From Salvelinus alpinus (taxonomy: Eukaryota > Chordata > Actinopteri > Salmoniformes > Salmonidae): a stretch of 64,000 nucleotides of DNA. The stretch is taken from the NCBI RefSeq assembly GCF_045679555.1, contig NC_092120.1, forward strand, positions 11,893,805-11,957,804, given 5' to 3'. Positions 49,424 to 64,000 of this stretch are shown here, piece by piece (positions within the stretch are counted from its first letter, which is position 1; each line of letters opens with the position of its first letter). The notes below the pieces were generated by a model. That model was not told the origin of the DNA. It was given only the letters and a program-made list of their open reading frames with translations, and ran no database searches. The position numbers were made by a program, and so were the translations under genes.

Positions 49424-50956
49424 ATGACGGTGAGAGAGCGGCTGCGGGAGAAGATCTCCGCGGCGTTCTACCGCCACGGGCTGCTGTGCGCCTCCTATCC
49501 GGTGCCCATCATCCTCTTCACCTCCGCCAGTATCCTCGCCTGCTGGTACGTCTGAGGAAGGGATGGGCGTTCTGGGGATGGGCGTTCTGGGGATGGGCAT
49601 CTTCAAGAGTTCTTGTACTGCTTTCTCTGAACACATTCATTGTTGGTTTAAGGCAAGTTGTGAAACAATTGTATCTACTTTTTTATCAACATGGGCAGAG
49701 GTGAGATGGTAGGTCAGGAGAAGAGAAGTGGATGGATGAAAATAAAAAAAGAGGTAAACAACAGAGCTGGGAGAAAAAGGAGCAGACCCTGCAAAACCCA
49801 GTCAACTAAATGAAACGGCCATAGCCATACACATAAATCAGCACTCGCGAACAGAACACACACTTTTCCACCTCAGAGTTCCACATTAGAGGTCAACCCC
49901 GTAACAGATGAGAAGTCAGGACAGGATGGAACGAATACGTTACAGCGTGGAACCATGGAGGCAGCAGTGCAGTGCCAAAAGCACGGCTGGCTGACGGCTG
50001 CACTGAGTGCAGGGAATTAAGGGGGTGGGAGCAGAGTTAAAAAGAGAGACACAGCAGAGGCTGTGAGAAAGTGACCCCTGGAGAATAGGCCTATATGTGT
50101 GTTCCTGGCCCTCCATCTGCCTCCCAGGAGGTGGGGGCTCCTGCTGCAAAACAAAAGCCCTTTGTGGCATTACAGTGACCTTAGAGAGGGAGAGCGAGCG
50201 AGTGGGAGAGAGGGTGTAGTGTCCTCAAAGAGAAATGTGTATCCCGTGGCCCCAGGCCTGACAGGCTGCCAAAGAACCAGGATGAAAGAGTGTTAAAGAA
50301 CTAAGATATTGAGCAACACTGTCAGTCACGTCACTATTAAAAAAAACACAAGCATTTCGCTACACCCGCAAAAACATCTGCTTAATATGTGACCAATAAG
50401 ATTTTATTTGTTGTACTATACTTTGGAACTATGCAAACTGCAGGTCAGGATACTGAGTCAGTGTTTAGTATATAGAACACCCAGAAACGTTTCAGTGTGT
50501 TAGTCCTCACATGAAAATCAATTTCCCAATGACCTGTTGGAATCTTTAGTTAATTATTCAAGAGGTTTGAAATGCTTTTGCTCGTCTTTGGAGGTGGGCT
50601 ACAACTTCTCAGCAATAGAGCAAGGCCTATACCCTTCTCAGTGGGGTAGTCTGCTCTCGAGGGGTAATACAATTACACAATTGTAGATTTCCACTCATAA
50701 GGTCCGGATATTTATAGAACTAGGTGGCACAGAGATTTAAACTGGCTATGGTTGTGGCATCATCCAAATTTGTACCTACCTTCATCCCTTTGCTACAGTA
50801 TTGCCAGGCTGTCATCATCATTTCCGGTCGTGGTAAAATGAACCCAATGACCTGACAGAGGCAGACAAATGCAGCACTGTCACTCTGGCTGTTTGTCTTA
50901 GCCTCGTAGCTGTCCATGAATTTTGGAGGCGCCCTTGAACTTAATGGACTTGTTGG

Positions 50957-51019
<63 letters not shown>

Positions 51020-54000
51020 CATTGAGTTTCTCATGAGTTTGTTTGCAGGACAAATGGGCCCTAGAAAGTGGGCCTTTCTAGAAGAATGATTGAGTGAAGA
51101 TGATGACAAACTGAGATAAAAGGTTGTAGTTACCTACTCATGCATTAGGGTGGAATTAGTGGGCATTAGTTAGACTCATGTTTTACAAACACACCTTCAT
51201 GAGTGGATATGGTATTGGCATACATATTAAGCACTAAACCCCTTCAATCCTTTTCTCATTAAGTGTATGTGTGTGTGTTCGTTCCTGTGTCTGTGTGTGG
51301 GTGTGCAATTCGGCACGTGAGAGTGTATCGGTCTACTAAATCCTGCAAATCTGTGTGTTTCATAAGAGCAAACCCCTGTAACTGCCAGTTAGACTTACAG
51401 GTTATGTCGTTGTTTTGTGTTTGAATTGTGTAACTGACAGTTAGACTTGCAGGTTATGTCGTTGTTTTGTGTTTGAATTGTTTACGTGTCCGCTGTGCGG
51501 GGAAATGATAAGAGAAGCGGAACTACGTAGCTAATAACTGTTGTAACGGGGATCCTTATTGTAGCAACACACTTTTGGAGGGAAGGCAATCCCGCGCTGT
51601 GTTAGCTAAGTTTTTATGTCATCGGGTGTAGTTCATAAAGTTTGAAGCGTATATGTTAGGATGGTAACGTTATAATAATTAAGGATGAAGCGTGAATTCA
51701 TGCCAGGAATAATAAGTGTGAAGCTTGATTATTATAACGTTACCATCCCAGGGAAACAGGGTGTCGGTCTCTAGTTAATGCCCAATCTGCCAACAAAGGA
51801 CAGGGGAGGCAGTGGCACCGACTTCACACACTCAGGGATGCTTATATACACATACATGTGTTATTATACTGAACAACAATATAAATGCAACATGTAAAGT
51901 GTTGGTTTCATGCGCTAAAATAAAAGATCGCAGAATTTCTGTCAAATTTTGTGCACAAATTTGTTTATATCCCTGTTAGTGAGCATTTCACCTTTGCCAA
52001 GATAATCCATCCACCTAACAGGTGTGGCATATCAAGAAGCTAATTAGACAGCATGATCATTACACCTTGTGCTGGGGACAATAAAAATCCACTCTAAAAT
52101 GTGCAGTTTTTTCACACAACACAATACCACAGATGTTTCGAGTGAGTGTGCAGTTAGCCCACATTCGGCTTCTTCACCTGTGGGATCGTCTGAGATCAGC
52201 CACCCGGACAGCTGATGAAACTGTGGGTTTGCACAACCGAAGAACTTCTACACAAACTGTCAGAAACCGTCTCAGGGAAGCTCATATGCGTGCTCGTCGT
52301 CCTCACCAGGGTCTTGACCTAACTGCAGTTCGGCATCGCAACCAACTTCCGTGGGCAAATGCTCACCTTCGATAGCCACTGACACACTAGAGAAGTGTGC
52401 TTTTCACGGATGAATCCCGGTTTCAACTGTACCAGCAGATGGCATCGTGTGGGTGAGCGGTTTGCTATTGTGAAAAGAATTCCCCAATGGTGGGGTTATG
52501 ATATAGGCAGGCATAAGCTACGGTCAACAAATACAATCGCATTTTATCGATGGTGATTTGAATGCACAGAGATACCGTGACGAGATCCTGAGGCCCATTG
52601 TCGTGCCCATTCATCCGCCGCAATCATCTAATTTTTCATTATGATAATGCACAGCCCCATGTCGCAAGGATCTGTACACAATTCCTGAAAGCTGAAAATG
52701 TCCCAGTACTTCCATGGCCTGCATACTCTCCAGACATGTCACCCATTGAGCATGTTTGGGATGCTCTGGAACGATGTGTACGGCAGCTTGTACCAGTTCC
52801 CGCCAATATCCAGTAACTTCGCAATAGCCTGATCAACTCTATGCTAAAGATGTCGTGCTACATGAGGCAAGTAATGGTCACACCAAATACTACTGGTTTT
52901 CTGATCCACGCCCCTACCGTTTCTTCTCAGGTATCTGTGATCAACTGATGCATATATGTATTCCCAGTCATGTGAAATCCATAGATTTAGGGCCTGAATT
53001 TATTTCAATTGACTGATTTCCTTATATGAACTGTAATTCAGTCAAATCTTTGAAATTGTTCCATATTGCATTTTTATGTTTTTGTTCGGTGTACATTTAA
53101 CTGTAAGGCAATGATCATTTTGGTAGAGGGTGTATATTTTAGTGCTGTGATAAGAATTCGCAATACTCAGGCCTGTAACTAATATTCAGACCCCGCTGTC
53201 ACTTATTCTCCAATCCCACGTTCTCCCATGTCATCGCTCTCTCCCCCCTCTCTCAGTTACCCCCTGCTGCGGCTGCCTCTGCCGGGGACCGGGCCGGTGG
53301 AGTTCACCACACGGGTCCGAGATTACACCGTCCCTTCCCATGAGCCCCAGGGAGACCTCGGCGAGCGGCCTGACTGGGTAAGACTGATGGTTAAAGTACC
53401 CACATGGCTTGACTGTTTACACAGTACATTTGTAACATCAGGATCTTTAAAAATTTAACTAACACCACTAAGTACCATTTGGTACCAGGTAGTTACCAAT
53501 TGCATTGAATTCTTTGAAATACCAACTGAAAAAGGGACTGTAAAATAACTAACTCATGTTTTTCAAAACCCTCTATGGCTCTGTTCCTCCAGTATCGGGG
53601 TCCTCCGGTGGCCTACATCCAGCCGGTCCTGGTGAAGGCAGCCGTGTCTCCCTGGGACAGTACGCTGGTCCCTGTGGACGTGTTCCGCTCCCCACTGGGC
53701 CGCGTGTTCAGCCTGCTGGAGGAGATCCGCAACCATGTACACGACGACGGGTATGGGAAACTAGACACGCACATCCAATGTCTCTCTCCACCTTTAGCTT
53801 GCTCTATCTTAAAATGCACCTTGACTTGACCGGACTTACCTCTCGTCTCTTTGCAGTTCTGGGGTCAGGAGCTTGGAGGCGCTCTGCCTGCAGGTGACGG
53901 ACCTGTTGCCGGGGTTACGGCGTATGCAGAGAGTGCTGCCGGAGCACGGTTGTCTGCTGGTCTCCCCTGGCAACTACTGGCAGAACCAGCGGGAGCTGTT

Positions 54001-56779
54001 TGACTCTGACCCCGACCTGCTGAAGACCGTCCACCAGCACGAACCCAAAGGACTGCACACCTCTGCCACACTGAGAGGTAGAGAGGGGAGGCAGGGAAGG
54101 GAGGGGTGAGGTAAATGGAGGGCAGAGCAGAGGAAGTATCCTTTTGTATCCCTTTGGCTAATGCTCATTGAGCCCCAACCAGAGCGTGTGAGCAGAGCCG
54201 CTCATCGCTAATGGAGCGGTGCTTGGGCTCCATGTCCTTTCCTCTAAAAACACGCCCCAAATTTGCTCCATTTATTAAAATCACAATTTAACCAACACCC
54301 ATCTATTTTTGTGACTACCTGGACCTGACTTGACCTGGACTTGACATATGCGCCGAATACAACAGGTGTAGACCTTACAGTGAAATGCTTACTTACAAGC
54401 CCTTAACCAACAATGCAGTTTTAAGAAAAATAAGTGTTCAAATATTTGCTAGTGAAAAATAACAAATAATTAAAGAGCAACAATAAAATAACAGTAGCGA
54501 GGCTATATTTAACCTTTTATTTAACTAGGCAAGTCAGTTAAGAACAAATTCTTATTTACATTGACGGCCTATATACAGGGGGTACAGGTACAGAGTCAAT
54601 GTGCGGGGGCACAGGTTAGTTGAGGTAATTGGGGTAATATCTACATGTAGGCAGAGGTAAAGTAACTATGCATAGATAAACAGAGTAACAGCAGGGTGGG
54701 GGTTTCAATGCAAATAGTCCGGATAGCCTTTTGACCTGGGGGTAGCAGCTGTTAAGAAGCCTTTTGGACCTAGACTTGGCACTCTGGTACCGTTTGCGGT
54801 GCGGTAGCTGAGAGAACAGTCTATGACTAAGGTGACTGGAGTCTTTCGCAATTTTTAGGGCCTTCCTCTCACACCGCCTGGTATAGAGGTCCTGAATGGC
54901 AGGACGCTTGGCCCCAGTGATGTACTGGGCCGTATGCACTACCCTCTGTAGTGCCTTGCAGTCGGAGGCCGAGCAGTTGCCATACCAGGCGGTGATGCAA
55001 CCAGTCAGGATTCTCTCGATGGTGCAGCTGTAGAACATTTTTGAGGATCTGAGGACCCATGCCAAATCTTTTCAGTCTCCGAGGGGGAATAGGGGTTGTT
55101 TGTCCTCTTCATGACTGTCTTGGTGTGTTTGGATAATGATACTCATTGGTGATGTGGACACCAAGGAACTTGAAGCTCTCAACCTGCTCCACTAGAGCCC
55201 CGTCGATGAGAATGGGGCTCTATCATCTTTGTCTTGATCACGTTGAGGGAGAGGTTGTTATCCTGGCACCACACTGCCAGGTCTCTGACCTCCTCCCTAT
55301 AGGCTGTCTCATCGTTGTCGTCGGCAAACTTAATGAGGGTGTTGGAGTCGTGCTTGGCCATGCAGTCATGGGTGAACAGGGAGTACAGGAGGGGACTGAG
55401 CACGCACCCCTGAGGGGCCCTCGTATTGAGGATCAGCATGGATCAGTTGTGTTGTTACCTACCCTTACCACCTGGGGGTGGTCCGTCAGGAAGTCCAGGA
55501 TCCAGTTGCAGAGGGAGATGTTTAGTCCCAGGGTCCTTAGCTTAGTGATGAGCTTTGAGGGCACTATGGTGTACCAATTGTTTTTTAAAGTATTGAAACC
55601 AAACCATATGGATTTGAATGAAAGGTATTTGAATAAACATGTAAATGTAAGAAGCGAACATAATTTCAAATAGCTACATGTCATATTAAACAGCATATAA
55701 ACACTCTAAATAGGTCAGGAGCCAGACAGGGAGCCTAACAAGGAACAAAAATGAATTATTTAGGCTATTATTTCAATTATTTCAAGGCTATAGCTTATAA
55801 AGAAATACATTGTGAAGCGTTTGTGAATGCGACACCAGGCTGGTAGGGACATAAAGCGCTCAGCATTTAAATAACATTTAGTTGTATTAAATCATTATAG
55901 TCTGTTAATTGTACATTTAGGCTGTGACTTACTTAGAATTAAATACAAATTAAATGAAAAATGCCTTATTAGTCTGTCTACAGTGCCTTTTAATAAATGT
56001 TTTGAATACACGCCAGTCTGTGTCTTCATGCGATGGTGCCTGGAGAGCGGGCCAGCAGCGGAGAATATCCTCTCCACGCTTGCAGAGCAAGCTGCTAAAC
56101 ACCCTTTTGGCCAAAAATGTTCTATAGGTAGGCCTAAAGGTTTTTAGGCAAAATAATCAAAACGGAAAGCTCCTTGAAAGTGGGAATGTAACATTGCCAG
56201 GCCTATTGGGCCAAAATATTTATGGCCTATTTTATAGATCTCTTTTAAGAGATCAGATTTTTTTGTTTATAAATACTTTGCTGCAATGACACACTTTAGT
56301 TATCTACAAACCTCGTTCCTTTCTTTTAGCATGTACATGTAGTAAGTATACTATCATGCTTTCTGGATACGCGTCTTTTCAGATTCCACAATGATTCTGT
56401 AGTTGTAGACACTACATCACCACACTCCCTCTTTTGCTCTCGGTCCTCATCTTTGTAAGTCACCTTGATTTTGCACCTGTGTGTTCTATCAGTTTCTTTA
56501 TAAAAATATTTTGTGAACTCCATAGCTGTAGCTAAAGCATGGGGCTATAGCAGCACACAAGTAGTCTACAAATGCATGCTGGGCTGGACATGCCCTGAGC
56601 TCCTGAAGTGAGCGCTACTTTTTTGGAGCGAAATTAGAGAGGGCAAGATGGCCGACGCTCCAGCCTTTTGGAAATCTCGCTCTGTGCTCCAGTCAAATTG
56701 GGCATGCTCCTCACTGCTCACGTACACTGGCCCCAACTAGTGTCAGGCAGACTGGTAATGCTGATATTGTTCCATGCTA

Positions 56780-56848
<69 letters not shown>

Positions 56849-57540
56849 GACCTGCTGTTTGGCGTCCCGGTGAAACACACAGGGGTGAGTCTGTATAGCA
56901 GGAAGAGAGTGGTCACCTACACCATCACCATGGTCCTGGGCAGCTACGACGCCAGGTTCCTGTCTAGCCTGCGGGCACGTCTCCGCCAGCTGCACCCCTC
57001 GATGAACTGCAGCCTGCGCGAGGACCACATGGTGCACGTGCACTTCAAGGAGGAGATAGGCATGGCCGAGCTCATCCCCCTGGTCACCACCTACATCATA
57101 CTGTTCGCCTACATCTACTTCTCCACACGTAAGTCTCTGACTGGAGTCTGGGCGCCACAGGGGCATCTCAATAGTCTAGATGTTCATTTCATCTGCACTG
57201 ATCTGAAAGAGTTGGCTTAGTTTCAATTAGTTTAAGATGCTTCCTTCTTTCCATCCCTTCTTCTTTGAAGTAATGTGTCCCCTTACTAAGACAGGTGGGG
57301 GAAATTAGTTTCAAATGAAATGCTGAAGTCGCCTTTCTTGCTTTGGGGGCCCCTCGTTTTCTCTAGGATATTGTGCCCAGTCAAGGCCACAGAGCCAAGA
57401 CCCAGATTAGTGTGTATGTGTGTGTTTGACCGAGTCCTAGCCAAGGCTGTTCCTGTCTAGTCCAGGGATAATCCCCTATACAGGAACACTGTAGTCCACC
57501 ATAATAATCTACCATGATAAGACTCGCCAACAATATGCTG

Positions 57541-57608
<68 letters not shown>

Positions 57609-60600
57609 CCCGCCATCTGAGCCCTAGACTCTTTTTTCTCCAGTTTGCCAGTGTACGGTTTCCGCCTGGGGACAAAAATGACAGAGGCAGATGGCTTTGT
57701 CTGCTGACTATCTGGCATCTAAATATCTCAGTTCTTACCTCATTTAAACTAAGAGCTGCATAAACTCTCATGCTCAGAGACATTCTTCTTTGTAGTGTGT
57801 GTGGCCTCTGTCTATGCTAACTCTTTCCTTCCAGTGTGTGTAGACTCTGTCTATGCTAACTCTACTTTTTCCTCTCTCCAGGTAAAATTGACATGGTGAA
57901 GTCAAAATGGGGCTTGGCGCTGGCTGCCGTGGTAACAGTGCTCAGCTCTCTGCTTATGTCTGTGGGGCTCTGCACCCTGTTCGGCCTGACGCCCACACTC
58001 AATGGAGGGTAAGAAACACACGCACACATACACACATATACATACACACACACACACACACACTAAAATCCCCTGACCATCTCCTGATCATTGAGCTGTA
58101 TGGATGACTGTGGGACTGCAGATGTTAATGTACAGTGAGTGACAGGGGACTGTGTTACCAAGGGCAACAGATGTGGACTTAAAGGGCAGGAGGGATTCTT
58201 AAGAGGGCGGGGATAGATATTGATGTGGCGTACTGGGCCAACATCTACATACCCACTGTTGTGCATATTGACACAATGGCCACATAACAGGTGTGTTTAG
58301 TCTTTATCTTCTGTTTTGTCTTTCTTCATCCGTACTCTTGTCTACTAAATATCCCGTTTTCTATTTTTAACCTGTTTTTTATTTGTACGACAAACATAAT
58401 GACAACAATCAAATTGAAAAACCTGACCTCTCTCCCACCCTAACATCCAAACTTGCATCTATCACCTGATCCACAAATAAGTAATCTGAGAGCACTGGTT
58501 ACTCAAATGAGATTATGAAGTATTATTCACAACAGCCTTGTAATCATGTTGTCTCTCTCTCTGTCAGTGAGATCTTCCCCTATCTGGTGGTGGTGATAGG
58601 GCTGGAGAACGTCCTGGTTCTCACCAAGTCTGTGGTGTCCACCCCTGTTGACCTGGAGGTCAAACTACGCATCGCTCAGGGTAAGAGTGTGTGTGGGTTG
58701 GTTCTTCTATCATTGTGGGGACCTAAAATCCCCATAAGTCCCCACGAGGATAGTAAAACAAGGAACATTCTCTTTCCCATGGCCCCATGAGGACAAAGGA
58801 TATTTTATGGTTAGAATTAGGGTAAGGGTGCCTCCTGAGTGGCGCAGCGGTTTAAGGCACTACATCGTGCTTGAGGCGTCGCTACAGACCAGGGTTCGAT
58901 CCCGGGCTGTTTCGCAGCCGGCTGCAACCGGGAGAACCCTGAGGCGGCACATAATTGGCCCAGCGTCGTCCGGGTTAGGGGAGGGTTTGGCCGGCCGGGA
59001 TGTCCTTGTCCCATTGCGCTCTAGCGACTCCTTGTGGCGGACTTCGGTTTCCTCCGTCATATTGATGCGGCTGGCTTCTGGGTTAAGCGAGCAGTGTGTC
59101 AAGAAGCAGTGCGGATTGGCGGGGTTGTGTTTCGGAGGACGAATGGCTCTCGACCTTCGCCTCTCCCGAGACCGTATGGGAGTTGCAGTGACGGGACAAG
59201 ACTGTAACTACCAGTTGGATATCACAAAATCGGGGATAAAAAGGGGTAAAAATGACCAGAATGAATATATATATATGATAATAACAATTAGGGTAAGGGG
59301 TTAGGGTTACAGGTTAGGGTTATGGTAAGTGTTAGGTTTAGGGTTAGGGAAAATAAGATTTGGAATGGAAATTAATTTTAGGTCCCCACGAGGATAGAAG
59401 AACAAAACGTGTGTGTGTGTGAAATCCAAGCATTTGTTAATGTGGTATTGTGTTGACCCTCTCCAGGCCTTAGTAATGAGAGCTGGTCTATCATGAAGAA
59501 CATGGCCACAGAGCTGTGCATCATCCTCATAGGATATTTCACCCTGGTGCCTGCTATCCAGGTAACACACACACACACCGATCTATCACACACTGGTGTA
59601 TGAACCCAGGTAGACGCACACTTTCATTCACATAGACAGAGTAGAGCATACTGCCACACAACATGCACACACCCACTTCTACTGTGTATGTTATGAGCGG
59701 CCTGTTTATTTCTGTGTTTCCAGGAGTTCTGTCTGTTTGCTGTGGTGGGGCTGGTGTCTGACTTCTTCCTTCAGATGTTTTTCTTCACCACAGTTCTTTC
59801 CATTGACATCCGACGCATGGAGGTGAACACACACACACTGTCAACAGTGCTTTCCTTAGTAATTTACAGCATGGAGGTGAACACACACACACTGTCAACA
59901 GTGCTTTCCTTAGTAATTTACAGCATGGAGGTGAACACACACACACTGTCAACAGTGCTTTCCTTAGTAATTTACAGCATGGAGGTGAGGTCATAGACAC
60001 ACACATTTGCCATGTGAAGGTGAGGTCTCTTGAGACATGAGTCATTTCTTCAGTCTACAGTGCTCTTTAAAATATTGACAGTCTCTCTTTATGCACCTTG
60101 TTCCCCTGTTACAGTCATATACACATGTATACTCTAACACTAATCCATACACATGTACTCACATACTTGTACTCTCATACGTGTTGCACACTCCCACATG
60201 CCCGCGCACCCTAAAACTGTCCTCTCACACACAGTTGGCCGATCTGAACCGGCGTCTTCCGGCCGAGGCGGGGATGCCCCTTCCCAAACCGGGCCCCCTG
60301 CGCCCTCGGGAGGCGCCTCCTCCCCCACGGCCCTCGCCCCACACCATCACCCTGCAGACGCCCGCCTTCAGGAACCTGCGTCTGCCCAAGAGGCTCCGTG
60401 TGGTCTACTTCCTGGCCCGCACGCGTCTGGCCCAGCGCTTCATCATGGTGAGACTGGCTGGAGGCACTTCCTGAAAAGACCGTTTAAGTTAGGGTTGCAC
60501 GATTATTTTGGAAAATGCACAGGCTTTTCAGAAATTAGGTTTGGAAGACTACTGATTTCCTGCTTATTCCCGTCTGATTCCGGGAATCTTCCAACTGGAT

Positions 60601-61629
60601 TTTCCGGAATTTTGCTACCCTAGTTTCACTTAGTCCAGTGTTAACAAATGCTTGTGTGAAAGGAGGGTGAGTTAGCACTGGGATAAGAACATGCAGTGTG
60701 AAAAAGCCTTGAGGGTCTGTCTCATGGCCTTTTCACAGAGTCAGCCTGCTGGGCTGTCGTGTCTGCGTGTGCTACGGTCTGTCTCGCCTGTCAGTATTTG
60801 TCGTTCTCTGTATGACTGTCTGAACATTTACAGTACTTCCTTGAAGTAGTCCACTGTATGCGTTGACATGTCCCTCTATCCCTGTATTGTTGTAGGTGGG
60901 TACAGTGATCTGGATTGGCATCCTGGCCTACACGGACCCCGCTGGCCTCCGTACCTACCTGGCAGCCCAGGTGTCTGAACAGAGCCCCCTGGGGGAGGGC
61001 GGGGCCGGGGGTCTGCCCCCCCACCTGGGAGTAGCCCCGGTCTTCCCTGGACCAGGAGGGGACCATGCCAGCACCCTCAGTGTCCTCCCTGCCCCCGCTG
61101 AACCCACCCCGCTTCCAGAGAACCAGTCCCAGGGCCACCACGGGGCCCCCAGGGAAGGAGTACCCCACCAGGCCCCACCCCTGGTGCCCCAGATCAGCTG
61201 GGGGGCGGAGGATGAGGAGGGCTGGAGAAAGCTGTCTTTCAGACACTGGCCCTCGCTCTTCAGCTACTATAATATTACTCTGGCAAAGAGGTAGGTCAGG
61301 GGAGTTGGAATGAGTTACTGGGTGTGTGTGTGTTTATCGCATGTGTGTGTTTACTGGATGTGTGTGAGCTTATGTGCATAGTGTGTGTGTCACTGTTGAC
61401 CCTACTTACCATGCTTTTGGGTTAGGTCGAATTCATTGTTTAATGTTAGGAAATGTCATTTTGTTACCTTTCTGTCCAACAGATACATCAGCATCCTGCC
61501 TGTCATCCCCATCACGCTTCACCTGAGCCCCCGGGAGGCCATCGAGACGCGTCACCCCCAGGACACACGCCACCCCCCGCTGCCCAGTCTCAAAACTAAC
61601 GACCTGCCCGCAGACCTCACGCTCTACAA
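49424..61629 (+). CDS. scap: SCAP, SREBP cleavage-activating protein, N-terminal membrane half
   Basis: ER polytopic sterol sensor that escorts SREBPs to the Golgi. Coding exons: 49424-49545, 53257-53377, 53593-53750, 53857-54077, 56850-57128, 57882-58008, 58568-58680, 59467-59561, 59724-59822, 60235-60447, 60896-61290 and 61483-61629. Phases are continuous and all introns are GT-AG. It begins [20 protein letters not shown], with a first membrane helix ([14 protein letters not shown]), a large lumenal loop, then the sterol-sensing domain from about exon 5 ([20 protein letters not shown]) to exon 9 ([21 protein letters not shown]). The YIYFS tyrosine and the aspartate of SIDIRR, positions where human sterol-resistance mutations are known, are intact. 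MELADL, the COPII/Sec24 sorting signal, spans the exon 9/10 junction. Exon 11 encodes a proline-rich lumenal loop. The WD-repeat SREBP-binding half is beyond 64000. Exon 9 has a tandemly copied donor (see findings). Confidence 0.95.
50339..50411 (+). mobile_element. LINE 3'-end fragment
   Basis: Reads caagcatttcgctacacccg then aaacatctgcttaatatgtg and ends ataagattttatttg. It matches the 3' tail of the LINE at 32508-34168, so it is a severely 5'-truncated copy in SCAP intron 1 of the coding region. Confidence 0.75.
50961..51014 (+). repeat. TG microsatellite
   Basis: About 27 TG units. Confidence 0.95.
51867..53091 (+). mobile_element. Tc1-like element, internally deleted and decayed
   Basis: Left end tactgaacaacaatataaat and right end ttatgtttttgttcggtg are imperfect inverted copies flanked by TA. 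At 1225 bp it is shorter than the usual 1.6 kb. Transposase pieces on the + strand: [20 protein letters not shown] (within 52133-52375) and [15 protein letters not shown] followed by [15 protein letters not shown] (52598-52816), in different frames. Confidence 0.88.
54346..55572 (-). mobile_element. L2/Rex1-like LINE fragment in SCAP intron 4
   Basis: On the minus strand, reverse-transcriptase C-terminal blocks [35 protein letters not shown] and a tail with [19 protein letters not shown]. The 3' end (leftmost here) carries a piece of the usual tail. Several frame breaks. Related to the copy at 32508-34168. Confidence 0.85.
55700..56560 (-). pseudogene. hAT transposase remnants
   Basis: On the minus strand, 56326-56523 encodes a BED-finger-like piece ([15 protein letters not shown], then a cysteine and [14 protein letters not shown]). 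Further along, 55895-56077 encodes [19 protein letters not shown], the conserved start of the hAT C-terminal dimerisation region. The catalytic middle is absent. The GC-rich flanks near 54180-54240 and 56585-56710 (gagcgct/ctccagc motifs) may be its ends. Confidence 0.65.
56782..56846 (+). repeat. GT microsatellite forming the SCAP exon 5 acceptor
   Basis: About 32 GT units run straight into ttag, the acceptor of the exon starting at 56850. There is no separate pyrimidine tract. Confidence 0.95.
57542..57737 (-). repeat. dispersed repeat ending in CA microsatellite (copy 2, inverted)
   Basis: Reverse-complement partner of 9006-9323. The unique part 57607-57737 looks essentially identical, and the CA run 57542-57606 corresponds to the TG run of copy 1. 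It lies in SCAP intron 5. Confidence 0.85.
58020..58064 (+). repeat. CA-rich repeat
   Basis: Short CA runs interrupted by ta and cg, just after the SCAP exon 6 donor. Confidence 0.85.
58829..59285 (+). mobile_element. tRNA-derived SINE with clear target duplication
   Basis: Head tgcctcctgagtggcgcagc, box B ggttcgatcccgggctg, then a body with cgtcgtccgggttagggg and a tail of gggataaaaaggggtaaaaa. The 14-bp direct repeat aattagggtaaggg flanks it (58815-58828 and 59286-59299). It has the same head as the SINE at 5142. It lies in SCAP intron 7. Confidence 0.9.
59286..59350 (+). repeat. degenerate ttaggg-rich stretch
   Basis: Several ttagggtt and gttaggg motifs in irregular spacing. They belong to an interstitial fish repeat that also includes the taggtccccacgaggata block on both sides of the SINE, rather than to a telomere. 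Confidence 0.6.
59817..59996 (+). repeat. scap: 54-bp tandem array copying the SCAP exon 9 donor
   Basis: The string atggaggtga occurs at 59817, 59871, 59925 and 59979, exactly 54 bp apart. The intervening DNA is nearly identical (CA run, then tcaacagtgctttcctta and a ttacagc block). Copy 1 contains the normal exon 9 end ATGGAG|gtgaac. Copy 4 ends ATGGAG|gtgagg, which is closer to the donor consensus. The reading frame stays open through all copies. Confidence 0.92.
60489..60622. repeat. MITE-like palindromic repeat
   Basis: Begins tagggttgcacgattatttt and ends ttccggaattttgctaccct, with ends that pair imperfectly. A related unit lies at 62017-62148. Confidence 0.55.
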
Positions 61630-62148: not shown

Positions 62149-63204
62149 CCCACACCTCTCTCTTCTTCCTCTCCTTCTAACCTTGCAAACGAAACAAGGC
62201 CAAACAGTCTGTCACTGTGTCAATGGTTATCTCAAAAAAGGTAGGAAGAAATATATATATTTTTTCCTCTTATCTCTATAGTTGAGTTGACTGGATATTG
62301 GGCGAGGTTGGTTTTGCATCGGTGCCCCCACCCACCCGGGGCACAGGGCCATGCAAAATGAACTCCCTCACTGACTCACAGACTTTGGTCCTGTCTACCG
62401 GCTCATCTGATTGGCTGTCAGGTTACTCGTAAGATGTCCGTGGGTTGATGATGTCATGGTGGAGTGGGTGATGGTTGGTGTGGTTTTTGGACTGAGTGAA
62501 ACGGTCTCTCAACTGTGTTTTCCCTAGTAGGGGGCAAAGGTTCCTCAAAGTAACAGGCAGTACGGCCAACGTCAATGTTTCTATTAGAACAAACAGAATT
62601 ATGCAGGGGGGTGCTGTGCTGTTTGAGAAGTAAGGGTGGTAATATTGTTTTCAAAGACCACCAGTGTTTTTCCTGCAGTATACTACATCCTTGACCAATA
62701 GCATGTTAAAATGGATCCAACTTTGGAACTGTGTCCACTGTGATGTGTAACGCCAGGGAGGCTTTTCATTGGAAGTGGGCGGTTTGAATCATATTCATCA
62801 GGTCATGGTCATCTGTGAAACCCAGATCCGTGTTCACGGTTCATATCTGAGATAAAGCTCACAGAGGTGAAGGTCATCTCTGGAACACAGGCCAGGCACA
62901 GATGGAGATTGATCTATTAGAATCGTTGGGTCAGGTCAAGGAGGAGGGGCCTGGATGGTTCTCCCAGAATAAAGTAGGATCTGTCGTCTAAAGTAGAATC
63001 TATGGCTGTCCAATCAAGGACAGCTTCCTTTGGAAGGTGGACTCAGTGTTATTTTCAGAGAATCTCCCTAAGCCTGTTTACAATAGTCATAAACAAATAA
63101 ACTGGTTGCCAATCAATGTTAGACACTATTTTATTATGTTAGGCCTGTGGTGGTGATGGAGTTACGTTAGTATGATCATTTTCTAACATCATTTCAAGCC
63201 TCAA
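62149..63204. other. SCAP intron, no recognised feature
   Basis: No SCAP exon follows the donor at 61630 before the window ends. This stretch shows no clear coding frame, no tRNA and no inverted-end element that I can support. Confidence 0.6.
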
Positions 63205-64000
63205 ATGGAAAGGCTGCTTTCTGTTGTGTGAATGGAAAGGCTGCGTTCTGTTGTAGTGTGAATGGAAAGGCTGCTTTCTGTGGTAGTGTGAATGGAAAGG
63301 CTGCGTTCTGTTGTAGTGTGAATGGAAAGGCTGCGTTCTGTTGTAGTGTGAATGGAAAGGCTGCTTTCTGTGGTAGTGTGAATGGAAAGGCTGCTTTCTG
63401 TTGTAGTGTGAATGGAAAGGCTGCGTTCTGTTGTAGTGTGAATGGAAAGGCTGCGTTCTGTTGTAGTGTGAATGGAAAGGCTGCTTTCTGTTGTAGTGTG
63501 AATGGAAAGGCTGCTTTCTGTTGTAGTGTGAATGGAAAGGCTGCGTTCTGTTGTAGTGTGAATGGAAAGGCTGCTTTCTGTTGTAGTGTGAATGGAAAGG
63601 CTGCTTTCTGTTGTAGTGTGAATGGAAAGGCTGCTTTCTGTTGTAGTGTGAATGGAAAGGCTGCGTTCTGTTGTAGTGTGAATGGAAAGGCTGCGTTCTG
63701 TTGTAGTGTGAATGGAAAGGCTGCGTTCTGTTGTAGTGTGAATGGAAAGGCTGCGTTCTGTTGTAGTGTGAATGGAAAGGCTGCGTTCTGTTGTAGTGTG
63801 AATGGAAAGGCTGCTTTCTGTTGTAGTGTGAATGGAAAGGCTGCTTTCTGTTGTAGTGTGAATGGAAAGGCTGCGTTCTGTTGTAGTGTGAATGGAAAGG
63901 CTGCTTTCTGTTGTAGTGTGAATGGAAAGGCTGCTTTCTGTTGTAGTGTGAATGGAAAGGCTGCTTTCTGTTGTAGTGTGAATGGAAAGGCTGCTTTCTG
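63205..64000 (+). repeat. 30-bp minisatellite running off the window
   Basis: About 26 units with the core gtgtgaatggaaaggctgc followed by gttctgttgta. They are almost perfectly regular at 30 bp and vary mainly at one site (gcgttctg versus gctttctg). The first units are slightly shorter. The array continues beyond 64000, so its length is unknown. Confidence 0.97.

Follow-up and report, generated by a model that had tools for sequence, protein, structure and literature searches.

The 64,000-nucleotide stretch of Salvelinus alpinus DNA analysed here (the window) carries, on its forward (+) strand, the greater part of one SCAP gene. Our coding model of this copy, which lies on contig C35, has 20 exons from an MTVRERL start, encodes 1259 amino acids without a stop and is full-length, including the C-terminal part; coding exons 1 to 12 lie within the window, from 49424 to 61629, and the remainder beyond its end. 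Exons are numbered here according to this model, while P0018, a protein labelled Oncorhynchus that is 97.9% identical to the C35 product over 1261 columns, begins 51 residues further upstream, with one additional upstream exon. The 137 amino acids encoded jointly by exons 8 to 10 belong to the SCAP sterol-sensing domain, as they matched six distinct solved SCAP chains with E values of 1.5e-58 to 1.1e-56, 7lkf_A being the best, and the other ten structure matches were to NPC1 or NPC1L1 at E values of 1e-4 or weaker. Exon 9 (59724..59822, +) ends in SIDIRRME at a donor, GAG/gtgaac (donor 1), and exon 10 (60235..60447, +) starts with LADL, so that the junction ME/LADL completes the motif MELADL after the sterol-sensing domain. 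The initial annotation of this DNA had named the gene as SCAP and placed the normal junction between 59822 and 60235; the structure matches and the intact 20-exon model agree with the first, and the model with the second.

The end of exon 9 lies in a tandem array with a period of 54 bp (59815..59988, +; Tandem Repeats Finder: 3.2 copies, 100% matches, score 348), a head-to-tail minisatellite of perfect identity that is beyond chance. Its unit takes in the final 8 bases of exon 9 and runs on into the start of intron 9, and it includes ATGGAG/GTGA, so that an AG/GT segment of the kind known from intron gain by tandem duplication is present in 3.2 copies. The sequence ATGGAG/gtga occurs at 59817, 59871, 59925 and 59979, with donors after 59822, 59876, 59930 and 59984, which delimit three extra segments of 54 nt. 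The first (59823..59876, +) and the second (59877..59930, +) end in donors 2 and 3, both GAG/gtgaac, and the third (59931..59984, +) ends in donor 4, GAG/gtgagg, the last array copy diverging from the others straight after gtga. Read in the frame of exon 9, the sequence stays open from 59697 through all the array copies and meets its first stop just past donor 4, where an in-frame TAG (59994..59996, +) closes the reading MEVRS. The four sites, their spacing, the open frame and the regeneration of MELADL from each donor had all been pointed out before, and coordinates and arithmetic alike proved correct; the rebuilding of the motif is automatic, because every copy ends in ATGGAG and these bases were copied along with the donor. 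Control of this region by an RNA hairpin was rejected, since the predicted fold of 59800-60040 is not more stable than those of its shuffles (z 0.93; at least as stable in 167 of 200).

The donors of the array are of unequal predicted strength. Scored with a donor matrix, donor 4 reaches 6.34 bits versus 2.36 bits for donors 1 to 3, and its predicted pairing with the U1 5' end is -10.2 versus -7.0 kcal/mol, in keeping with the earlier remark that donor 4 is nearer to consensus than donor 1. A fifth donor, AAG/gtgagg (60017..60025, +), whose exon side ends at 60019 and which was absent from the four listed initially, has the top score by the same matrix (7.21 bits) among the GT sites covered by a scan of 59724 to 60230; a cut between 60019 and 60020 would take in the TAG stop, ending the protein in SMEVRS. 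In a library study of tandem donors spaced 2-77 nt apart, the first of two equal donors was preferred and the stronger of two unequal donors dominated (PMC6783452). Donors 2 and 3, being identical to donor 1, should lose under the first-wins rule and be minor, so that the forms with 18 and 36 extra residues should be the least likely, and the contest would be among donor 1, donor 4 (54 extra residues) and the stop-containing form from 60019, the latter two donors, 162 and 197 nt beyond donor 1, lying outside the spacings tested in that study. Context may override such rules, since SRSF1 is able to move choice toward the intron-proximal donor, according to PMC5585400. The ladder of 0, 18, 36 or 54 residues put forward in the initial annotation is thus sound in its donors, open frame and arithmetic, and unlikely as a simple ladder, given three identical donors followed by the stronger donor 4 and the still stronger donor 60019.

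A second SCAP gene was found on contig C4 when the genome (2.37 Gb, 928 contigs) was searched. This ohnologue is intact, with 20 exons and 1263 residues, and its protein is 99.2% and 100% identical, in two blocks, to P0046, the label of which begins Oncorhynchus ki. A look at the duplicate locus had been suggested at the outset, and there exon 9 has one donor, GAG/gtgaac, and the array is absent. As C4 has donor 1 alone, this donor is common to both copies and the identical array copies are derived; a device common to both SCAP copies was rejected on the same ground. At the exon-9 donor region, C35 has 193 nt that lack a C4 counterpart, the fifth donor among them; part of the 31 nt that remain beyond the identical copies may have been lost from C4. 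The two genes differ by a dN of 0.0107 and a dS of 0.068, and the resulting dN/dS of 0.157 indicates that C35 is not free of selection. When replacements were polarised with pike and Dallia protein outgroups, 19 of 25 fell on C35 and 6 of 25 on C4 (binomial P 0.015; 30 differences in total, with 5 ambiguous ones excluded), a split compatible with relaxed constraint on C35. For an array as old as the separation of the ohnologues, about 5.5 substitutions are expected over the three extra copies, against 0 observed (P 0.004), which implies an age of less than about 54% of the ohnologue split, unless the copies have been homogenised.

The same gene copy contains a second array of period 54, about 2.8 kb past the window end (C35:11960647-11961087; L013:3647-4087; 8.2 copies, 97%), which straddles the exon-16 acceptor (gtggttag/CTGTGGGA). 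It holds eight acceptors exactly 54 nt apart. The normal protein comes from the last only, and the seven upstream acceptors lead to a TAG through the reading LWDAVEGSLRC(S/T)NVLCG. C4 has one acceptor at exon 16, where two 9-base near-repeats, GCACTAATG and GCAGTAATG, are spaced at exactly 54 bp; through slippage or unequal exchange, these would account for both the period and the place of the exon-16 array. They are a likely cause and strengthen a mutational reading of this array. That the two units of 54 bp go back to one source was rejected, since the exon-9 and exon-16 units have no similarity beyond that of shuffles (236 of 500 reach their score), and the period they have in common is an odd, unexplained coincidence. 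Among Tandem Repeats Finder rows of period at least 10 within the gene, some of which describe one array twice, those spanning a junction number 2 of 9 in C35 and 0 of 11 in C4.

Other repeats are found in the introns of these genes. SCAP intron 12 contains a 30-bp minisatellite that extends from 63204 to 64000 in the window and on to L013:1361, with 45 copies in C35, and a 15-copy array of the same unit lies at L012:4416-4872 in C4. In intron 7, upstream of exon 8, the sequence at about 58835-59215 in the window resembles a salmonid tRNA-derived SINE, and in intron 1 that at about 52150-52950 has the look of a degraded transposon of the Tc1/mariner type.

Neither the spanning of a junction by the exon-9 array nor its open frame needs selection, since junction-containing placements of a 54-nt segment make up 1,634 of 20,298 (8%) over the C35 gene body, a junction being counted when at least 6 nt inside the segment, and since the frame stays open in 1,079 of 1,634 (66%) simulated donor-spanning duplications of 54 nt at all donors of C35 and C4; the figure of 1,634 belongs to two separate sets that happen to be equal in size. 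When donor-spanning segments of 30 to 90 nt in both copies were each duplicated once, with sizes not divisible by three scored as failures, an in-frame, stop-free extension resulted in 24,554 of 113,570 cases (22%). As to the source of the unit, a dispersed element was rejected, because searches of the genome with the unit, and with the region as a whole, led, among the best candidates scored, only to this locus and, for the flanks, to the C4 copy. A short-word search of the unit core against the gene region was dominated by CA repeats and gave no source among the matches listed. At exon 9 of C4, the 20 bases around the donor share no repeat of at least 7 bases with the 192 that follow, a result that slightly weakens the mutational reading for this array.

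We consider it probable, from all the above, that the exon-9 array is a recent duplication of minisatellite type across a splice junction, near-neutral or mildly harmful, and not a selected switch. A 54-bp segment straddling the exon-9 donor would have multiplied in tandem, recently and in one SCAP ohnologue, with the array growing by minisatellite-type slippage or unequal exchange. The donor would have been copied since the duplicated stretch happens to straddle the end of exon 9, and MELADL would be rebuilt by way of the last exon codons copied with it. Donor 1 would then compete chiefly with donors 4 and 60019, donors 2 and 3 being little used, and messages spliced from 60019 would carry a premature stop and be expected to undergo nonsense-mediated decay. 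The complete identity of the copies, set against the ohnologue dS of 0.068, supports a recent origin, and the exon-16 array, together with the near-repeats 54 bp apart in C4, supports a mutational cause. Several points count against this reading. It is an odd coincidence that one gene copy should contain two junction-spanning arrays of period 54; the unit length is divisible by 3 and leaves the frame open throughout, as an isoform device would need; the dN/dS between the ohnologues shows that C35 has not escaped selection; and C4 offers no 7-base seed at exon 9.

Alternatively, the extra sequence might act mainly as a poison extension, in that the stronger donor behind the stop, at 60019, would cut the output of C35 SCAP through nonsense-mediated decay and so be a step toward ohnologue loss. 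This donor outscores all other GT sites scanned, lies in sequence that C4 lacks and would add MEVRS and a stop; the exon-16 array contributes seven further acceptors that give a stop, and C35 has taken more of the replacements (19 versus 6). Against it, the 20 coding exons of C35 are intact and bear the mark of selection noted above, and the strength of the donor is a matrix prediction, not a measurement. On balance we judge this reading unlikely.

A ladder of isoforms, as the initial annotation proposed, seems to us decidedly improbable. Here, SCAP with 18, 36 or 54 extra residues before MELADL would alter the access of COPII to the motif, and with it sterol control. Besides the four donors, the open frame and the repeated MELADL, what speaks for such a device is the position of the motif. 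Displacement experiments with MELADL are reportedly described by Sun et al. 2007. According to PMC9233655, the motif occupies the C-terminal end of a helix that leaves the membrane, and it binds COPII; a sterol-driven change in loop 6 stops this binding (PMC12773782), so that exposure of the motif is under sterol control. A shift of MELADL by 54 residues, if made, would plausibly disturb that control. The insert had been described as fairly hydrophobic, and it is mildly so, with a top 19-residue Kyte-Doolittle mean of 1.05 among every third window, well below the 2.04 of the preceding helix; a new transmembrane segment in the insert is not supported by values near 1 in the windows so sampled.

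Homologous proteins give this device little encouragement. The insert motif occurs in 0 of the 219 homologues among the matches listed from three protein searches, which covered lengths of about 700 to 2230, 80 to 254 and 235 to 747 residues; the genomic frame counted from its first internal ATG has 73 residues and falls outside these ranges. The first gave 892 matches, and among the 120 listed MELADL is present in 118, the normal junction string is exact in 108 and another 10 have TTIL instead of TTVL; the other two, P0104 and P0115, have other sequence at the junction. P0104, a predicted protein of Hemibagrus guttatus, contains RRMEVRIVNMLADL, in which MELADL is interrupted by an insert at the junction of exons 9 and 10; this may be a gene-model error. 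The search at 80 to 254 residues gave, from 1,013 candidates, no match with an E value of up to 10, and that at 235 to 747 residues gave 100 matches, covering 23 to 36% of the scored stretch, 99 of them new proteins; MELADL is present in 78 of these 99, and the other 21 break off or continue differently after RRME. The homologue database is clustered at 90% identity, with P0018 representing 136 sequences, and an isoform could hide in such a cluster; as repeats also break short-read assemblies, the absence of the insert is weak evidence. In literature on salmonid SCAP splice variants, splice-site-carrying repeats, competing donors and MELADL, nothing on the exon-9 array appeared among the matches listed. 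Together with the ohnologue that lacks the array, the frequency of open frames in simulated duplications, the expectation from PMC6783452 that identical donors 2 and 3 lose to donor 1, and the stop ahead of 60019, these counts leave the earlier suggestion of length variants with altered ER exit without support. A broader version, in which a length-variable donor minisatellite shifts MELADL in 18-residue steps so that SREBP leaves the ER differently in fish with different array lengths and, with the exon-16 array, two arrays tune one gene copy by splicing, is in our view highly improbable.

An assembly artefact, in which the exon-9 array is falsely expanded or its copy number false, might be suspected from the perfect identity of the copies and is very unlikely, given that the 537-nt region has a 100% match at one place only, inside a 25-Mb contig, that elsewhere it matches the C4 copy alone, as two pieces (88% and 99%), and that the last copy is distinct after gtga, making at least one junction distinct.

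The exon-9 array resembles several known systems in part. Tandem duplication of AG/GT segments has been described, in PMC2891723, for Drosophila cases in which a size that is a multiple of three permits in-frame alternative splicing, and, in PMC4974935, for the potato RdRp gene, where the duplication crosses an intron-exon boundary; the likeness to intron gain by this route lies in the AG/GT segment doubled in tandem, and the potato duplication is like the SCAP exon-16 array in crossing a boundary. The exon-9 array differs in that its unit crosses a donor, is present in about four copies and would yield a new intron only hypothetically. An intron of 54 nt would be short for a vertebrate. Fission yeast has 24-bp tandem AGGT arrays with introns across several copies (SPOG_01682 and SOCG_00815, cited in PMC4974935), and these too are multi-copy AGGT arrays inside genes; the yeast segment is exonic, with splicing supported by ESTs, whereas that of SCAP is mostly intronic and known from genomic sequence. 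With the tandem 5' splice sites of PMC6783452 the exon-9 array has in common several donors facing one acceptor, although that study compared two sites, and SCAP has five candidate donors, three of them identical, arising from the repeat and its flank. Coding minisatellites and VNTRs likewise consist of perfect tandem copies such as these of 54 bp; the SCAP array starts in an exon and is mainly intronic, and would be coding only if a downstream donor were used. The exon-9 array seems to behave as a minisatellite whose unit chances to overlap a splice donor, distinct from the precedents in its donor-crossing unit, about four copies and open frame.

The two SCAP genes of this fish form a natural experiment, in which near-identical copies have either a single donor or five candidate donors beside a well-studied sorting signal, and the pair would test the choice among tandem donors in a native gene. 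Should longer proteins be made, they would test in vivo whether it matters how far MELADL lies from the membrane; otherwise the locus would be an example of a tolerated minisatellite that crosses a splice junction.
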